Part shown: positions 22,756 through 32,083 of the stretch, one piece after another | Layout of the letters: every line of letters starts with the position of its first letter | Numbering within the stretch: the stretch's first letter is position 1 | Virus record (IMG/VR): IMGVR_UViG_3300033388_002434 | Location: 1 to 34,596 of that record | Reading direction: 5' to 3' (one strand) | Source of the DNA: a virus | Length of the DNA stretch: 34,596 bases | The notes under the pieces: model-generated | Database searches by the model: none | What the model saw: only the letters and a program-made list of their open reading frames with translations | What the model was told of the DNA's origin: nothing | Program-made: the position numbers and the translations under genes

Positions 22756-22868
22756 TCAACTTGCTGGCGGGAGGCCCTGTAAGCTTCCTCCTCCAGGCGT
22801 AACCGGGATAGAGCCGCTTCTCTGCCCGGTGAGGGCTTCCTGGCAGCATTTTAAAAGGAGAGATTGTT
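22756..22868 (+). other. GC-rich intergenic leader
   Basis: A 113-base gap with CCGGG (about 22807-22811) able to pair with CCCGG (about 22828-22832), and other short GC pairings. It ends in AAAGGAGAG before the next ATG. It may be a message-stabilising or processing element; no gene or terminator is seen. Confidence 0.4.
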
Positions 22869-25639: not shown

Positions 25640-26902
25640 ATGACAGTAGCAAATAATATCAATAAAAATGTAGTCATAGCCTTACAATCGGGGAAAGGGA
25701 TAATCGCTGAGGCAGGGGCTGCAAGTGCACAAAGTTTAAGGTTTATAAAATTTAATCAGGACCAGACAAACGAAAATTACATGTCGAACGAAATCCGTCC
25801 GGATAGGCAGATTGGTGATGTAAATATCGGGCCTCAGGACGGGAACGGGGCGTGTAACGGGGAACTGACGCCTGGAACATATGAACTTTTTGAGGCAGCT
25901 GTTTTGCGGAAAAACTTTGTGGCTGGAAAAGTTGCGGGTCCTGAAACTGATATTACATCAGCGGTAGTTCTCGGGGCAAAGGCGACCTTTACTTCAGCTG
26001 CTACTGCCACATTTATCACTGACGGGTTAAAAGTTGGAGATGTGGTCAGATTTTCCGGGTTTGCGGTGACCACGACGGATGCAACAGCCAATAACGACCA
26101 TAACTTTCTGATTACCGATTTGACGGAATTAGTTATGACTGGAATCTTTATTGATGGCGTCCCCGCGGTAGCGAAAGCCGAAACTGAAGCCGTGACAGTT
26201 ACGGTAGCCGGTCAAAAATGCTGGACTCCGGCAACTGGGCATACCGAAGACTGGTTCACGATTGAGCATAATTATAACGATGTAGATTTATCGGAAGTGT
26301 TCTGGGATTGCAAGCCTACATCGATCTCGGTTAAGGCCCCCGCGACTGGAATCCCGACGGTTGATTTCAACATTCTCGGACTTCAAATGACTCCGAAAGA
26401 CACAGCTGAAGCGCCTTATTTTACTGATCCTGCGGATATTACGGCTACCGATGCAGTCCATAGCGGGAAAGCCGTGATTTTGATTTCAGGGGTTGAGCAG
26501 ATTCTTGCAACCGGAATTGATTTTGAAGTTGCTGGGAATAATCAAACTATGGCGCCCGTACTCGGGACCAACATAAAACCTGGCATCTCTGATGGTCGGC
26601 TGGAAAATAAAGGCAATATTTCCATTCTCTTTGAAGATGATACGATTTCCGGAAAATTTAGAGCAGGGGAGGAAGTTTCTATTTTTATTGTTCTGCCTGT
26701 TTCTGATGAGCCGGATGCGGAATTTATCGCGTTTGCAATCCCAGTGGCAAAACTGACTGGGGCAACAAAAGATGGTGATAAAGAAATCACGCATAGCCTT
26801 CCATTTACGGCGAGATTCAATAGCGCTGGAGATGACGGAACCACATGCACGGTAAACACGTTGGCTACAACGATGAGCATGCAGGATTCGAGTTTAACTT
26901 AA
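25640..26902 (+). CDS. Tail tube (major tail) protein
   Basis: A 420-residue protein, long for a tube subunit. The N-terminal MTVANNINKNVVIALQSGKG, the conserved SNEIRPDRQIGDVN and GPQDGNGACNGELTPGTYEL segments, and the later WFTIEHNYNDVDLSEVFWDC fit the phage tail-tube family (tail_tube_2 type). An inserted beta domain (about 95-190) resembles an added Ig-like unit. It polymerises around the tape measure to make the tail. Ribosome site AAAGGAGA. Confidence 0.82.
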   Translation: MTVANNINKNVVIALQSGKGIIAEAGAASAQSLRFIKFNQDQTNENYMSNEIRPDRQIGDVNIGPQDGNGACNGELTPGTYELFEAAVLRKNFVAGKVAGPETDITSAVVLGAKATFTSAATATFITDGLKVGDVVRFSGFAVTTTDATANNDHNFLITDLTELVMTGIFIDGVPAVAKAETEAVTVTVAGQKCWTPATGHTEDWFTIEHNYNDVDLSEVFWDCKPTSISVKAPATGIPTVDFNILGLQMTPKDTAEAPYFTDPADITATDAVHSGKAVILISGVEQILATGIDFEVAGNNQTMAPVLGTNIKPGISDGRLENKGNISILFEDDTISGKFRAGEEVSIFIVLPVSDEPDAEFIAFAIPVAKLTGATKDGDKEITHSLPFTARFNSAGDDGTTCTVNTLATTMSMQDSSLT

Positions 26903-26954: not shown

Positions 26955-27377
26955 ATGGATAACGCAAAAGTAATTGATTTGGCTGAAATTGATACAGTAA
27001 AAGGGTCAAACGAAGGTTTTGATGTAAATATCTATCATCCTGGAACGATGGTAGACCTGGGGATAATTATCAATGTACTTGGCAAAGACTCAGATGAATT
27101 CCAAAAAGTTTCCCGCGCACAATCAAAAAAGCGCATGGCAAAAATGACAAAAGGCGGGTTTCGCGTTCAGAACATGACCCCGCCCCCTGAAGAAATCGAA
27201 GCTGACGGAATGGAATTGCTCGCGCGCTGCACAAAGTCGTGGAGCGGGGTGATTGTAGAAGGCAAGGAAATTGAATTTTCATATAAAAATGCCCTGATGA
27301 TTTACGGTAGATTTCCATGGATCAAGGAGCAAGTCGATACCGCAATAGGTGACCGGGCAAATTTTATCAAGAGCTGA
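26955..27377 (+). CDS. Tail assembly chaperone, short form (G-like)
   Basis: A 140-residue protein starting MDNAKVIDLAEIDTVKGSNE, with GGAGGAG 7 bases before the ATG. The beta-rich first half and helical second half (EEIEADGMELLARCTKSWSG, ALMIYGRFPWIKEQVDTAIG) are typical of the G-type chaperone that coats the tape measure before tail assembly. A slippery heptamer lies 4 codons before its stop and fuses it to the downstream T frame in a minority of products. Confidence 0.85.
   Translation: MDNAKVIDLAEIDTVKGSNEGFDVNIYHPGTMVDLGIIINVLGKDSDEFQKVSRAQSKKRMAKMTKGGFRVQNMTPPPEEIEADGMELLARCTKSWSGVIVEGKEIEFSYKNALMIYGRFPWIKEQVDTAIGDRANFIKS
27359..27365 (+). promoter_or_regulatory. Programmed -1 frameshift site A AAT TTT
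   Basis: In the G frame the bases read A-AAT-TTT, a canonical X-XXY-YYZ slippery heptamer. It lies 9 bases before the G stop (27375-27377) and just after the upstream stop of the T frame (27350-27352). A -1 slip continues as KFYQELIGEP and onward. A following GC-rich stretch (27381-27420) could provide a stimulatory structure. Confidence 0.85.
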
Positions 27378-27766
27378 TCGGGGAACCGGCCTGGGAAGAT
27401 GCTGCCTTCCCGGGTTATGGCCTGATCGGTTTTGCAGAACATGAATTCGCGCTTAGCAAAAAACAGGGTGACGGATCATCTGGAAAAGACCATTTAGAAC
27501 ACGCAGCGAGAAATAATCTTTTGATTGGGAAACCGCCTCCGAAACAGCTCGAAGGAATAAACCTGCCTTACTGCTTGAGTTATTTGTGGGGCTGGTTTTG
27601 TGAGCTTTCAGGCGGTCGTGACTATTCGCAAGCTGGGCCATTGCCGCTTAAATATTCAGAGATTGAGTCGTGGGCAAATTTATTAAAGATCGATCCATCG
27701 ATATGGGAAGTACAGATAATCAAAGCTATTGACAGGGTATTCATCACAGAGGTGGGGAAAAAGTAA
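27365..27766 (+). CDS. Tail assembly chaperone extension (GT-like, reached by -1 frameshift)
   Basis: The frame is open from 27353 to the TAA at 27766 but has no ATG near its start. Its first usable start would be a TTG at 27521. This is expected for the T part of a G-T pair, made by -1 slippage at 27359-27365. The fusion would have about 270 residues: 137 from the G frame and 133 from here. The extension includes IGKPPPKQLEGINLPYCLSY and IESWANLLKIDPSIWE. It likely recruits tail-tube subunits to the coated tape measure. The tape-measure gene starts at the next base. Confidence 0.85.
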   Translation, partial: YQELIGEPAWEDAAFPGYGLIGFAEHEFALSKKQGDGSSGKDHLEHAARNNLLIGKPPPKQLEGINLPYCLSYLWGWFCELSGGRDYSQAGPLPLKYSEIESWANLLKIDPSIWEVQIIKAIDRVFITEVGKK

Positions 27767-30700
27767 ATGCCAGATTTAGCATCGTTATATATCAAGGTGG
27801 ACTCTAAAGGCGTTGTGACGGCTGGTAAGGATCTGGATAAACTCACCGGAACAAGCCATGGTGCAGAAAAGGCCACTGAATCAGTTACAAAAAGCTTTTC
27901 AAATCAGCTTATGGTCGTGAAGACATTGGCTAAAGGGTACGCCGCTCTGAAGATGGCTCAGTATATAAAAGACGCAACAATGCTTGCTGCCAGGTATGAA
28001 ACGCTTGGCGTTGTCATGCGCGTTGTTGGAAATAACGCCGGGTATACAGGGGCGCAAATGGATGAGTTTACTCGTAGCCTTCAAGAGACGGGTATTTCGT
28101 TGGTGGAATCGAGACAGTCAATAACTCGGATGGTCCAGGCACATCTTGATCTTACTAAAGCATCAAAGCTTGCTCGTGTCGCCCAGGATGCAGCAGTTAT
28201 TGGCAATATTAATTCATCTGAGGCATTTCAAAGGTTGGTTTATGGTATTCAATCTGCGCAGGCTGAAGTATTACGAAATATTGGAATCAATGTAAACTTT
28301 GAAACCAGTTATAAAAAAGTAGCTGATGCAACGGACCGCGCCACCACATCATTTTCTGAAGCTGAGAAAGCAGAGATCAGAATGGACGCTGTTCTCGACT
28401 CAAACACAACGATTGCGAGTTCTTATGCAGCGAGTATGGAGACTGTCGGGAAACAAATGCTGTCCCTTCCAAGATATCTTGAAAATATTAAGGTTGGTTT
28501 TGGTCTGGCATTTACTCCGGCATTGGCTGAAATTATAGAATCAATTACCGGATCTTTAAAAACTCTTAACGGCGAATTAACAGAAGGCAGCAAAGAAAAA
28601 ATAAATGATTGGGGCGTGAATTTCCGAATTGCAATAATTTCCATTGAAGCAGAATTTATGCGGCTTGCGATGCTAATTGATAAAATTGGCGGGACAATGA
28701 CTTCAGCCCAAATGTTACTTTATGGGCCGGGTGCCGCACTTGGCATTGAAAGCAGCACGAAAAGATTTGAAGCAGCAGCAGATGCAAATATGGAATATAG
28801 GCGAAGATATGAGGAAACAGACAAGGCGCTTGAAGCCCTTGCTCTTAAACAGATTCGTCTTGAACAATCTTTGACAAAAGAAGGGAAAGCCACTGCAAAG
28901 GCAAGGGCTGATGCCTTAGAAGCTACACGTCTTGCGTCAAGAGAGCAGACAGAGGAAACCGGAAAAGAAGAAAAAATCCTCAAGGAATGGACAGAATTAC
29001 AGAAAGGAATAGGGCTTACAAGTGTAGAAAACGAATTAAGGTTACTTGATATAAAATATGAAAATTTTAAAAAGGTGGCTGAAGATGAAGTAGCCCTCGA
29101 GAAATGGAAACAAGATCAGATCCTTGAAATCCAGGCCAATGCCGCAAACCAAAGTGTAGCACTGTATCAGGAGCTTTATGAAGCAACCGGCCTTGATGAG
29201 TATGCAGAAAAGGCAATCTCAGAATACGCAAAAGTTTTAGATGCCGCTGAATCAACCTGGGGCGGAATATTAGAGGATGAGGAAGATATAGCAACTCTCA
29301 GGCTCAAAAAAGAAGAGGAATTCGCTGATAAACTTTATGGTATTTTTGACGACATCGTAGACGCTGAACAAGACGCGGCCGATGACAGATTGAACGTAAT
29401 CCGGGATTTTACAGACAATCGAATATCTGAAGAAGGCCGAGGTGGCGCAGCAACGAAAGAAAGCATGGGGATAAGAGGAGAAATTGTCCCTTTCGAATCA
29501 GATACATCTTTTCAGATGACATGGGATTCTTACGTCGGATGGCTTACTCCGGGAGTGATTAAGGAGCTTGATCGTAACCAGGCCATTATCGAAAACGCCC
29601 CAAAAATAGCGGCGGCGGCGGCGGCAAGAGAAGCGGCGGCGCAAAAAGCCGCTACGGATGCGCAGAGGGCATCGGCAGACGCACAACGGGCAGCGGAAAG
29701 AGAGGCGCAAAGGCTACGAGGCATTGCAGACCAGAGAGTCAGATTAGAAATTCAAACGCTTGAGGCGACTGGATACGCAGAAGAGGCACTCGGAGTTCAA
29801 AGGCTTTTTGAGTTATCTGCGTTGGATGAATCGTTGAGGCCACTCCAACAACGACTTTATTACCTTGAGGACGAAGCCAAGGCGGCTGAAGAGGCGGCGG
29901 AGGCATCAGAAAAACTCATAGAAGCGCAAAAAGCATCTCTTGATGTATTCGAAGATTCAATTTCTGCTCTCGTTTCACAAGGCAAAGCAATCAAAGATTT
30001 TATCAATTCGCTGGGCGCGGCTGGCGGAGCGATATCACTTTCAGCTGCTCGGGCATCATACGCGGCAGACCTGGCCGGAGCAAAAACAGGGGACCCGGAA
30101 GCTTATAGCCGTGTCACACAGAGCGCTGGAACTTACATTTCAACCGCTGGCCAAACTGCCAGAAGCTCGGTTGAAATGGCCCGTATAGTTGCTGGAATCA
30201 AAAGCGAATTATCAGCATTGCAGCCAGTAGTTGACCTTGAATCAAATATTGAACTTTTGAAGGCGATCAAGGAAGCTACGAAAGACACTGCTACGTCTAC
30301 TGATCGACTTGACGTTCTAGGAATTAAGGCAATTTTTGATCTTGAACAGACATTGACGCTGGTTGATAATTCGGAAGGTTTGCCGGATCACTTGAAAAAA
30401 ATGATAGTCGCTCAGTCTGGGGATTATACGCTATGGCTTAAGGCTCAGTTAGATTCTTCGGTGAGTGATGATTTAAAGCGAGTTTTGATTGACGGCGCTG
30501 GGATATACGCAGCATCAGTTACGGCAACTATCGGAACGGTAGATGCAAAAAGCCAGAAGTTGGTATTTGATACAGCAAAGCACACATTTCAAACCGACAT
30601 TAATGCAGTATTTGAATCAATGGACGCAAAAAGCCAAGCGCTTGTATTCGATGCGGCACGTAAATATGAAACTGATGTAAGTTCAGTCTACGGCAATTCA

Positions 30701-32083
30701 GACGCTAAAAGCCAAACGCTCGTTTTCGATGCCGGGCGTGATTACGAGACTGCCGTGTCAGCTGCGTTTGAGACAGCGGACGCAAAAAGCCAGAAGTTAG
30801 TTTTCGATGCGGCGAGAAAATACACCGCGAATGTTTTTGCTTCGTTTGTGTCGGCTGATGAAGAAAGCCAAAAATTAGCTATCGACGCAAGAGGGCATTA
30901 TGCCGCAACGGTGGACTCAATAATGGGTAGCTGCCTTGATGACGAAAGTAAAAAACTGGCTATAACGGCTGAAGGCGGTTATCTCTCGACTGTAACCGCT
31001 GTAATCGGAAATGTTGACGATCACGTAAAAAAGATTATTTTTCCATTGACTGAAATAATAAAAAGAACAATCGATGCCTCTTTAAAGCCTGGAGTATTAG
31101 AGTCTGATGCCGGCAAATTAGCTCTCGGTGAAACAAATGACATGACTACACGCGTTGCGGCGGTGATGGGAACGCTTTCGGATGGCACGGTATCAACAAA
31201 AGACGCGCTGAAAGCTCTTGAAACATATTCAGACTTGCAGACAAACGTTGCCGCAGTGATGGGCGCCCTTTCAGACGGCACCGTAACAGACGATACCGCA
31301 ACGAAGATTTTGCAAGGGACTATCGACAGGACTGCGAAGATTGCAGCAGAGCTTGACAACCCAGCATGGGCGTCAAATCCAGCAGCAAATCCAGCTTATC
31401 AACTCGCTCTCGCGGAAGGGAGCGCATATTCTGCATCGGTTACCGCAGCGTTAAAAGATGGTGATATAACCGCTGACGAACTTTCAGCTTTATTGAGTGG
31501 AACGGGGCTGGCGGTTACAGAGATTGACGGGATTATGACGTGGAGTCCGGAAAAATCGTTGAAAACTATATGGGAAGCTATACAGTCGTCAACTCAGGGG
31601 ACAGCGGCCAATACAAAAAAATTGTTGCTAGCGTCTGTCCCAACAACGGCTACTACCGTAGAATCAGTAAGCGAGGTTCTTAATTATATAGATGACTGGG
31701 GGGTCCCTCATTACAAGACCGTAAATTATGCGACAACCACTAGCCATGGAATTAATTATTTTACTGACGGCACAAAATCAACTTATGCAGATGGCGGAGT
31801 TTTTACAAACGGAATTGTTACAAAGCCCACCCTTTTCAATAATTCGCAAATGGGGGAAGCAGGCCCGGAAGCAATCATGCCTCTAACGCAAGGCCCTTCA
31901 GGCCTCGGGGTCAGAGCAATAGGAGCCGACAGCCCTGAACTTTTGGCAGAAATAAAAAAGCTAAGAGAAGAAGCGAAAGCGGGTGATCTCGCACTCGCGA
32001 AAAATTCAACCAAAATAGCAAAGATTCTGTCCAGATTTGATGATGACGGAATCCCTGCAGAAAGGGCTGCAAATGGGGGCTAA
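27767..32083 (+). CDS. Tail tape measure protein with 26-residue repeats
   Basis: A 1438-residue protein that sets tail length. The N-terminal 200 residues (YIKVDSKGVVTAGKDLDKLT, then VMRVVGNNAGYTGAQMDEFT) are typical. Alpha-helical coiled coils follow, including an Ala-run (AAAAAAREAAAQKAATDAQR near 620-640). Residues about 924-1085 consist of repeats of 26-27 residues (core DAKSQKLVFDAARKY). The C-terminus ends with ADGGVFTNGIVTKPTLFNNS and MGEAGPEAIMPL, a common tail-tape ending. If every residue spans about 0.15 nm, the tail would be near 215 nm. No lysozyme or peptidase domain is apparent. Confidence 0.93.
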   Translation: MPDLASLYIKVDSKGVVTAGKDLDKLTGTSHGAEKATESVTKSFSNQLMVVKTLAKGYAALKMAQYIKDATMLAARYETLGVVMRVVGNNAGYTGAQMDEFTRSLQETGISLVESRQSITRMVQAHLDLTKASKLARVAQDAAVIGNINSSEAFQRLVYGIQSAQAEVLRNIGINVNFETSYKKVADATDRATTSFSEAEKAEIRMDAVLDSNTTIASSYAASMETVGKQMLSLPRYLENIKVGFGLAFTPALAEIIESITGSLKTLNGELTEGSKEKINDWGVNFRIAIISIEAEFMRLAMLIDKIGGTMTSAQMLLYGPGAALGIESSTKRFEAAADANMEYRRRYEETDKALEALALKQIRLEQSLTKEGKATAKARADALEATRLASREQTEETGKEEKILKEWTELQKGIGLTSVENELRLLDIKYENFKKVAEDEVALEKWKQDQILEIQANAANQSVALYQELYEATGLDEYAEKAISEYAKVLDAAESTWGGILEDEEDIATLRLKKEEEFADKLYGIFDDIVDAEQDAADDRLNVIRDFTDNRISEEGRGGAATKESMGIRGEIVPFESDTSFQMTWDSYVGWLTPGVIKELDRNQAIIENAPKIAAAAAAREAAAQKAATDAQRASADAQRAAEREAQRLRGIADQRVRLEIQTLEATGYAEEALGVQRLFELSALDESLRPLQQRLYYLEDEAKAAEEAAEASEKLIEAQKASLDVFEDSISALVSQGKAIKDFINSLGAAGGAISLSAARASYAADLAGAKTGDPEAYSRVTQSAGTYISTAGQTARSSVEMARIVAGIKSELSALQPVVDLESNIELLKAIKEATKDTATSTDRLDVLGIKAIFDLEQTLTLVDNSEGLPDHLKKMIVAQSGDYTLWLKAQLDSSVSDDLKRVLIDGAGIYAASVTATIGTVDAKSQKLVFDTAKHTFQTDINAVFESMDAKSQALVFDAARKYETDVSSVYGNSDAKSQTLVFDAGRDYETAVSAAFETADAKSQKLVFDAARKYTANVFASFVSADEESQKLAIDARGHYAATVDSIMGSCLDDESKKLAITAEGGYLSTVTAVIGNVDDHVKKIIFPLTEIIKRTIDASLKPGVLESDAGKLALGETNDMTTRVAAVMGTLSDGTVSTKDALKALETYSDLQTNVAAVMGALSDGTVTDDTATKILQGTIDRTAKIAAELDNPAWASNPAANPAYQLALAEGSAYSASVTAALKDGDITADELSALLSGTGLAVTEIDGIMTWSPEKSLKTIWEAIQSSTQGTAANTKKLLLASVPTTATTVESVSEVLNYIDDWGVPHYKTVNYATTTSHGINYFTDGTKSTYADGGVFTNGIVTKPTLFNNSQMGEAGPEAIMPLTQGPSGLGVRAIGADSPELLAEIKKLREEAKAGDLALAKNSTKIAKILSRFDDDGIPAERAANGG
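30538..31017 (+). repeat. Six tandem 26-27-codon repeats in the tape measure gene
   Basis: Consecutive units begin VDAKSQKLVF, MDAKSQALVF, SDAKSQTLVF, ADAKSQKLVF, ADEESQKLAI and LDDESKKLAI, each followed by a D/Y-rich second half. Unit length is 78-81 bases. The later units are diverged and grade into VAAVMGTLSDGTVS-type repeats near 31155-31290. Confidence 0.85.

Follow-up and report, generated by a model that had tools for sequence, protein, structure and literature searches.

In phage lambda, the tail assembly chaperone is made by the G/GT frameshift (Levin 1993; Xu 2004, 2013; as reviewed in PMC5009743), in which the genes run in the order tube, G, T and tape measure, the shift is −1 and falls near the end of G, the site is an in-register X XXY YYZ heptamer (G GGA AAG), and T has no start of its own. 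Predicted −1 slippage in the chaperone preceding the tape measure, at heptamers other than that of lambda, has also been described for Acinetobacter phage Loki (AAAAAAC) and Caulobacter phages phiCbK/Colossus (AAAAAAC, GGGAAAC; PMC5313236, PMC3556154). The window analysed here is the whole 34,596-base virus record IMGVR_UViG_3300033388_002434, a single metagenomic contig. It holds a locus that shares with lambda the gene order, a predicted −1 frameshift near the G end, a T frame lacking its own start and an in-register X XXY YYZ heptamer; this likeness is one of architecture, and no claim is made that the sequences resemble G or T of lambda. Unlike Loki and phiCbK/Colossus, the locus carries the heptamer A AAT TTT, and it differs from lambda both in this heptamer and in a strong predicted hairpin 4–6 nt downstream.

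We consider it highly probable that the locus belongs to a long-tailed phage or prophage and encodes its G/GT tail assembly chaperones by means of a −1 slip at A AAT TTT. The frames, the heptamer, homology, conservation and the predicted RNA fold are read from the sequence, and from them we infer the slippage, its rate and the action of the chaperone. The architecture is that of the known lambda G/GT class; what is new, and well supported, is a further member of the family, in a phage probably of sediment bacteria.

Gene order and overlapping frames

Gene order in the window is that of a long-tailed phage: terminase, portal, head morphogenesis, capsid, head–tail connectors, tail terminator, tube, chaperone pair and tape measure. 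Two overlapping frames lie between the tube and tape measure genes, with T in the −1 register to G. The features of the locus are:

25640–26902, + strand: tail tube (major tail) protein gene (Pfam Phage_tube_2, 75.6 bits)
26955–27377, + strand: G-like tail assembly chaperone gene, zero frame, 140 aa (phrog_313; model match to 2OB9)
27350–27352, + strand: −1-frame TGA stop just 5′ of the slippery site, retained in most close relatives
27359–27365, + strand: slippery heptamer A AAT TTT, in the zero-frame register and found at the same site in related loci
27366–27371, + strand: spacer from the heptamer to the consensus hairpin (only its first 4 nt when the window itself is folded at minimum energy)
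27370–27433, + strand: predicted stimulatory hairpin of two stacked stems (fold energy, recoding tests, paired changes in relatives)
27375–27377, + strand: zero-frame stop TGA, by sequence reading
27365–27766, + strand: T-like domain after the −1 slip, 133 aa (Phage_TAC_18, PF23812), within a frame open from 27353
27767–32083, + strand: tape measure protein gene, 1438 aa (phrog_1538 tape measure, E = 0.0016, and size)

Zero-frame codons across the heptamer read GAC CGG GCA AAT TTT ATC AAG AGC TGA. Direct reading of the sequence bears out the account of the frames given in the initial annotation. The −1 frame is open over 27353–27766, beginning six bases 5′ of the heptamer, behind the TGA at 27350–27352, and closing with a TAA at 27764–27766; the zero-frame TGA falls nine bases past the heptamer; the downstream frame has no ATG, GTG or TTG before a TTG at 27521; and its −1 register is kept in every close relative found. 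The G/GT assignment made there is likewise supported, by homology, gene order, register, heptamer conservation, startless relatives and a downstream stimulator-like hairpin, the last of which it had not mentioned and which was found in this analysis.

The TAA of the T frame abuts the tape measure ATG at 27767 without a gap. In several relatives, the two codons (window 27764–27769) overlap as TAATG. Given this abutting or overlapping arrangement, translation of the tape measure may be coupled to the rare ribosomes that read the −1 frame.

Chaperone homology and the predicted fusion

Both halves of the locus match tail assembly chaperone families. The G half, which has no Pfam match, matches the tail assembly chaperones of phrog_313 (E = 3.6e-17), and the best solved match to its AlphaFold model (pLDDT 86) is the HK97 chaperone 2OB9 (Z 5.8, rmsd 5.6, 100 residues aligned of a 107-residue chain), followed by a next row at Z 2.4. 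This is a match at the level of the model, with a sequence identity of 8%, and at a Z below 8 it lends moderate support to an HK97-like tail assembly chaperone fold in the G half. The T half matches Phage_TAC_18 (PF23812) over residues 59–131, at 54.4 bits against a cut-off of 27; the model of the T domain, of moderate quality (pLDDT 77), had no meaningful PDB match by Foldseek. A sequence search of solved structures returned nothing for the T half and chance-level matches only for the G half. The alignment used for protein folding was built from the related loci, without the rows from annotated phages.

Joined through the slip, the 270-aa fusion matches the tail assembly chaperone family phrog_8233 in one stretch across the junction (residues 78–249, E = 4.7e-8, covering only 160 of 271 positions), compared with E values of only 0.098 and 3e-4 for the separate halves. 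Because this match spans the junction and is stronger than that of either half, it argues, at the level of sequence, for the fused protein as the natural unit.

In the proposed mechanism, most ribosomes would stop at the TGA at 27375 and release the 140-aa G-like chaperone. A smaller share, delayed by the hairpin 4–6 nt downstream while Asn and Phe tRNAs occupy AAT TTT, would slip back one base to AAA TTT and read on in the −1 frame, yielding a 270-aa fusion in which RANF is joined to YQELIG. The initial annotation had given RAKFYQELIG as the junction peptide, which is wrong: the Asn codon would be decoded in the zero frame before the slip, so that the junction is RANFYQELIG, and a targeted peptide search for the Lys form would therefore miss it. 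The predicted tryptic junction peptide of the fusion is ANFYQELIGEPAWEDAAFPGYGLIGFAEHEFALSK, with Asn as its second residue. If the locus works as in lambda, G would serve to coat the tape measure and T to bring in the tube protein, with the rate of slippage setting the ratio of G to GT.

The slippery heptamer and the predicted downstream hairpin

The bare 7-mer AAATTTT is rarer in the window than expected, with 17 occurrences against 29. Across the 25 putative genes, in-register X XXY YYZ heptamers stand at 0.7% of codon positions, and 0.05 would be expected by chance in the 7-codon overlap. A AAT TTT occurs in register twice in these genes, at this site and once inside the tape measure gene, and the junction heptamer is the only X XXY YYZ lying within 30 nt of a stop.

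This in-register heptamer inside the overlap is conserved. Of the 21 related loci whose upstream protein is about 46% or more identical, 20 have A AAT TTT at the corresponding position, among them four from bacterial genome bins. Because there are a few near-duplicates in this set, the 20 occurrences do not amount to 20 independent events. The exception, L015, has the imperfect heptamer C AAT TTT and retains the register and the hairpin. Codon choice is also held at the junction: among 17 aligned genes, codons 135–137 (Ala-Asn-Phe) are GCA in 16, AAT in all 17 and TTT in all 17, compared with 48 other conserved amino-acid positions upstream, at which on average 58% of sequence pairs use different codons. 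A Phe codon upstream of the junction is likewise invariant in these genes; one frozen codon by itself may be fortuitous, and three consecutive ones at the junction are, on sequence grounds, not likely to be.

The −1-frame TGA, six bases 5′ of the slippery site, is formed with the Gly132 codon, which is GGT in 15 of 16 relatives. An internal Shine–Dalgarno sequence at the same place (GGTGA, 27348–27352) was considered as a 5′ stimulator and is not favoured: its spacing is 6 nt, shorter than usual for −1 sites, and the Gly132 codon is never GGA or GGG. Either of these codons would also yield a Shine–Dalgarno-like sequence; the conserved T of GGT fits the −1-frame TGA better.

Near the equivalent junction, distant relatives carry the heptamers TTTTTTC/G/T, AAAAAAC, AAATTTC and GGGAAAC/G. 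The initial annotation had set A AAT TTT against lambda's G GGA AAG; the difference holds, but not as a distinguishing feature. A heptamer other than lambda's is ordinary, since other phage chaperone sites and the relatives described here use varied heptamers, and the use of A AAT TTT is a matter of detail. The literature searched, which took in few subscription papers, yielded no earlier record of this heptamer in a phage tail chaperone. Two candidate precedents were rejected: AAATTTT in a Wolbachia phage hydrolase is part of a +1 proposal, and in a fungal construct it is sequence downstream of the shift site.

Downstream of the heptamer, positions 27370–27433 are predicted to fold into a hairpin of −36.4 kcal/mol, with z-scores of −3.2 against dinucleotide shuffles and −3.5 against synonymous recoding. 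Only one in 500 recodings of the same −1-frame peptide folds as well, and when all 85-nt windows on the + strand are compared, just one other place is more stable than the hairpin. Its arms are the two LIG-coding repeats. The spacer is 6 nt in the consensus and shortens to 4 nt if the fold of the window itself is taken with its weak basal pairs, compared with a usual 5–9 nt between heptamer and structure at −1 sites (PMC5009743).

Folds of the relatives gave synonymous-recoding z-scores of −2.1 to −6.8 in 13 of 15. In the window's subgroup, pairing is preserved in 93% of pair cells, five pairs have changed on both sides, and the subgroup's covariation score exceeds those of all 500 shuffles and all slid controls; the covariation rests on six and four sequences and is supportive, not conclusive. 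The locus has, in sum of fold and spacing, a stable 3′ structure at typical distance and under selection, for which a stimulatory role is predicted, and it offers a clear candidate stimulator hairpin. Another subgroup forms a different hairpin from the same stretch, and short-form relatives form a third, weaker one; no significant downstream fold was found in the short-form relatives L016 and L022, so the structure is not universal. There was no real Rfam match at the frameshift hairpin, and one lncRNA match lay upstream, on the other strand and far below the cut-off. Tentatively, these relatives may represent a Syntrophales-associated phage clade that combines A AAT TTT with at least two downstream RNA structures built from different T-coding parts and with a −1-frame TGA six bases 5′, making T reachable via the slip only.

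Elsewhere in the window, the most stable + strand RNA fold (−49 kcal/mol, z −3.25) lies in a short stretch between two genes downstream of the capsid gene, at 22756–22860; it matches no Rfam family and lacks a T run of the terminator kind.

Relatives, host and other routes to the T frame

Relatives of the locus occur in Syntrophales and Smithella genome bins, and two others lie in bins assigned to Eubacteriales and to unclassified Deltaproteobacteria, respectively. Since relatives sit in Syntrophales and Smithella bins, they suggest syntrophic sediment bacteria of these groups as hosts. The relatives were found by protein searches, and a DNA-level search of phage records gave no match. In the annotated phage relatives inspected (L049–L063), the T part is a separate hypothetical ORF or unannotated, and a joined G–T gene is recorded in none of them. 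The G/GT reading would thus make a missing 270-aa gene product annotatable in a group of uncultured phages, and would extend the usual G/GT logic, with A AAT TTT, to phages probably of syntrophic sediment bacteria.

Deposited records often show the T part as an ORF of its own with a late start. On such a reading the downstream frame would be a separate gene, begun at the TTG at 27521 or at a rare non-AUG codon near 27374, with no fusion made. The TTG lies just 5′ of the Phage_TAC_18 match, and its 81-aa product would hold the whole domain. We regard separate initiation as very unlikely, given how poorly a start in the T frame is conserved: the first candidate is codon 101 of 129 in L006 and codon 125 of 140 in L064, inside or past the T domain and too late to make it, so that independent initiation cannot explain the family. 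The T frame has no usable start of its own in the window and in some relatives. In addition, the roughly 50 residues before the TTG at 27521 are themselves conserved protein (FYQxLI...AEHEF...DG), the CTG at 27374 is CTA in L002 and L023, and the frozen heptamer codons and the hairpin would be purposeless under a separate start.

The two frames could instead be joined by slippage of RNA polymerase; in favour of this route, the junctions of some distant relatives (L019, L055) contain at least seven T in a row. Transcript slippage usually needs runs longer than three A or four T, whereas the site in the window has only three A and four T, and the conserved downstream hairpin with its typical spacer fits ribosomal slippage; we judge the polymerase route to be extremely improbable. 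Although the locus itself is known from a single metagenomic contig, the chance that misassembly or a disrupted gene accounts for the overlap is negligible, as the same overlap and register recur in about 20 other contigs and four genome bins.

Beside the ribosomal −1 slip favoured for the window, two annotated relatives show other registers. In L050 (Limnohabitans phage DC31, 1892–2287), the T-like domain lies +1 (or −2) relative to the chaperone gene and not −1, no X XXY YYZ heptamer was found, and another kind of shift may be used. In L061 (Pseudomonas phage PaMx28, 1092–1878), the T-like domain is in +1 at a T-run junction, in a phage whose relative A1432 is in −1; the +1 register reflects either a misread T run or a shift of another sort.
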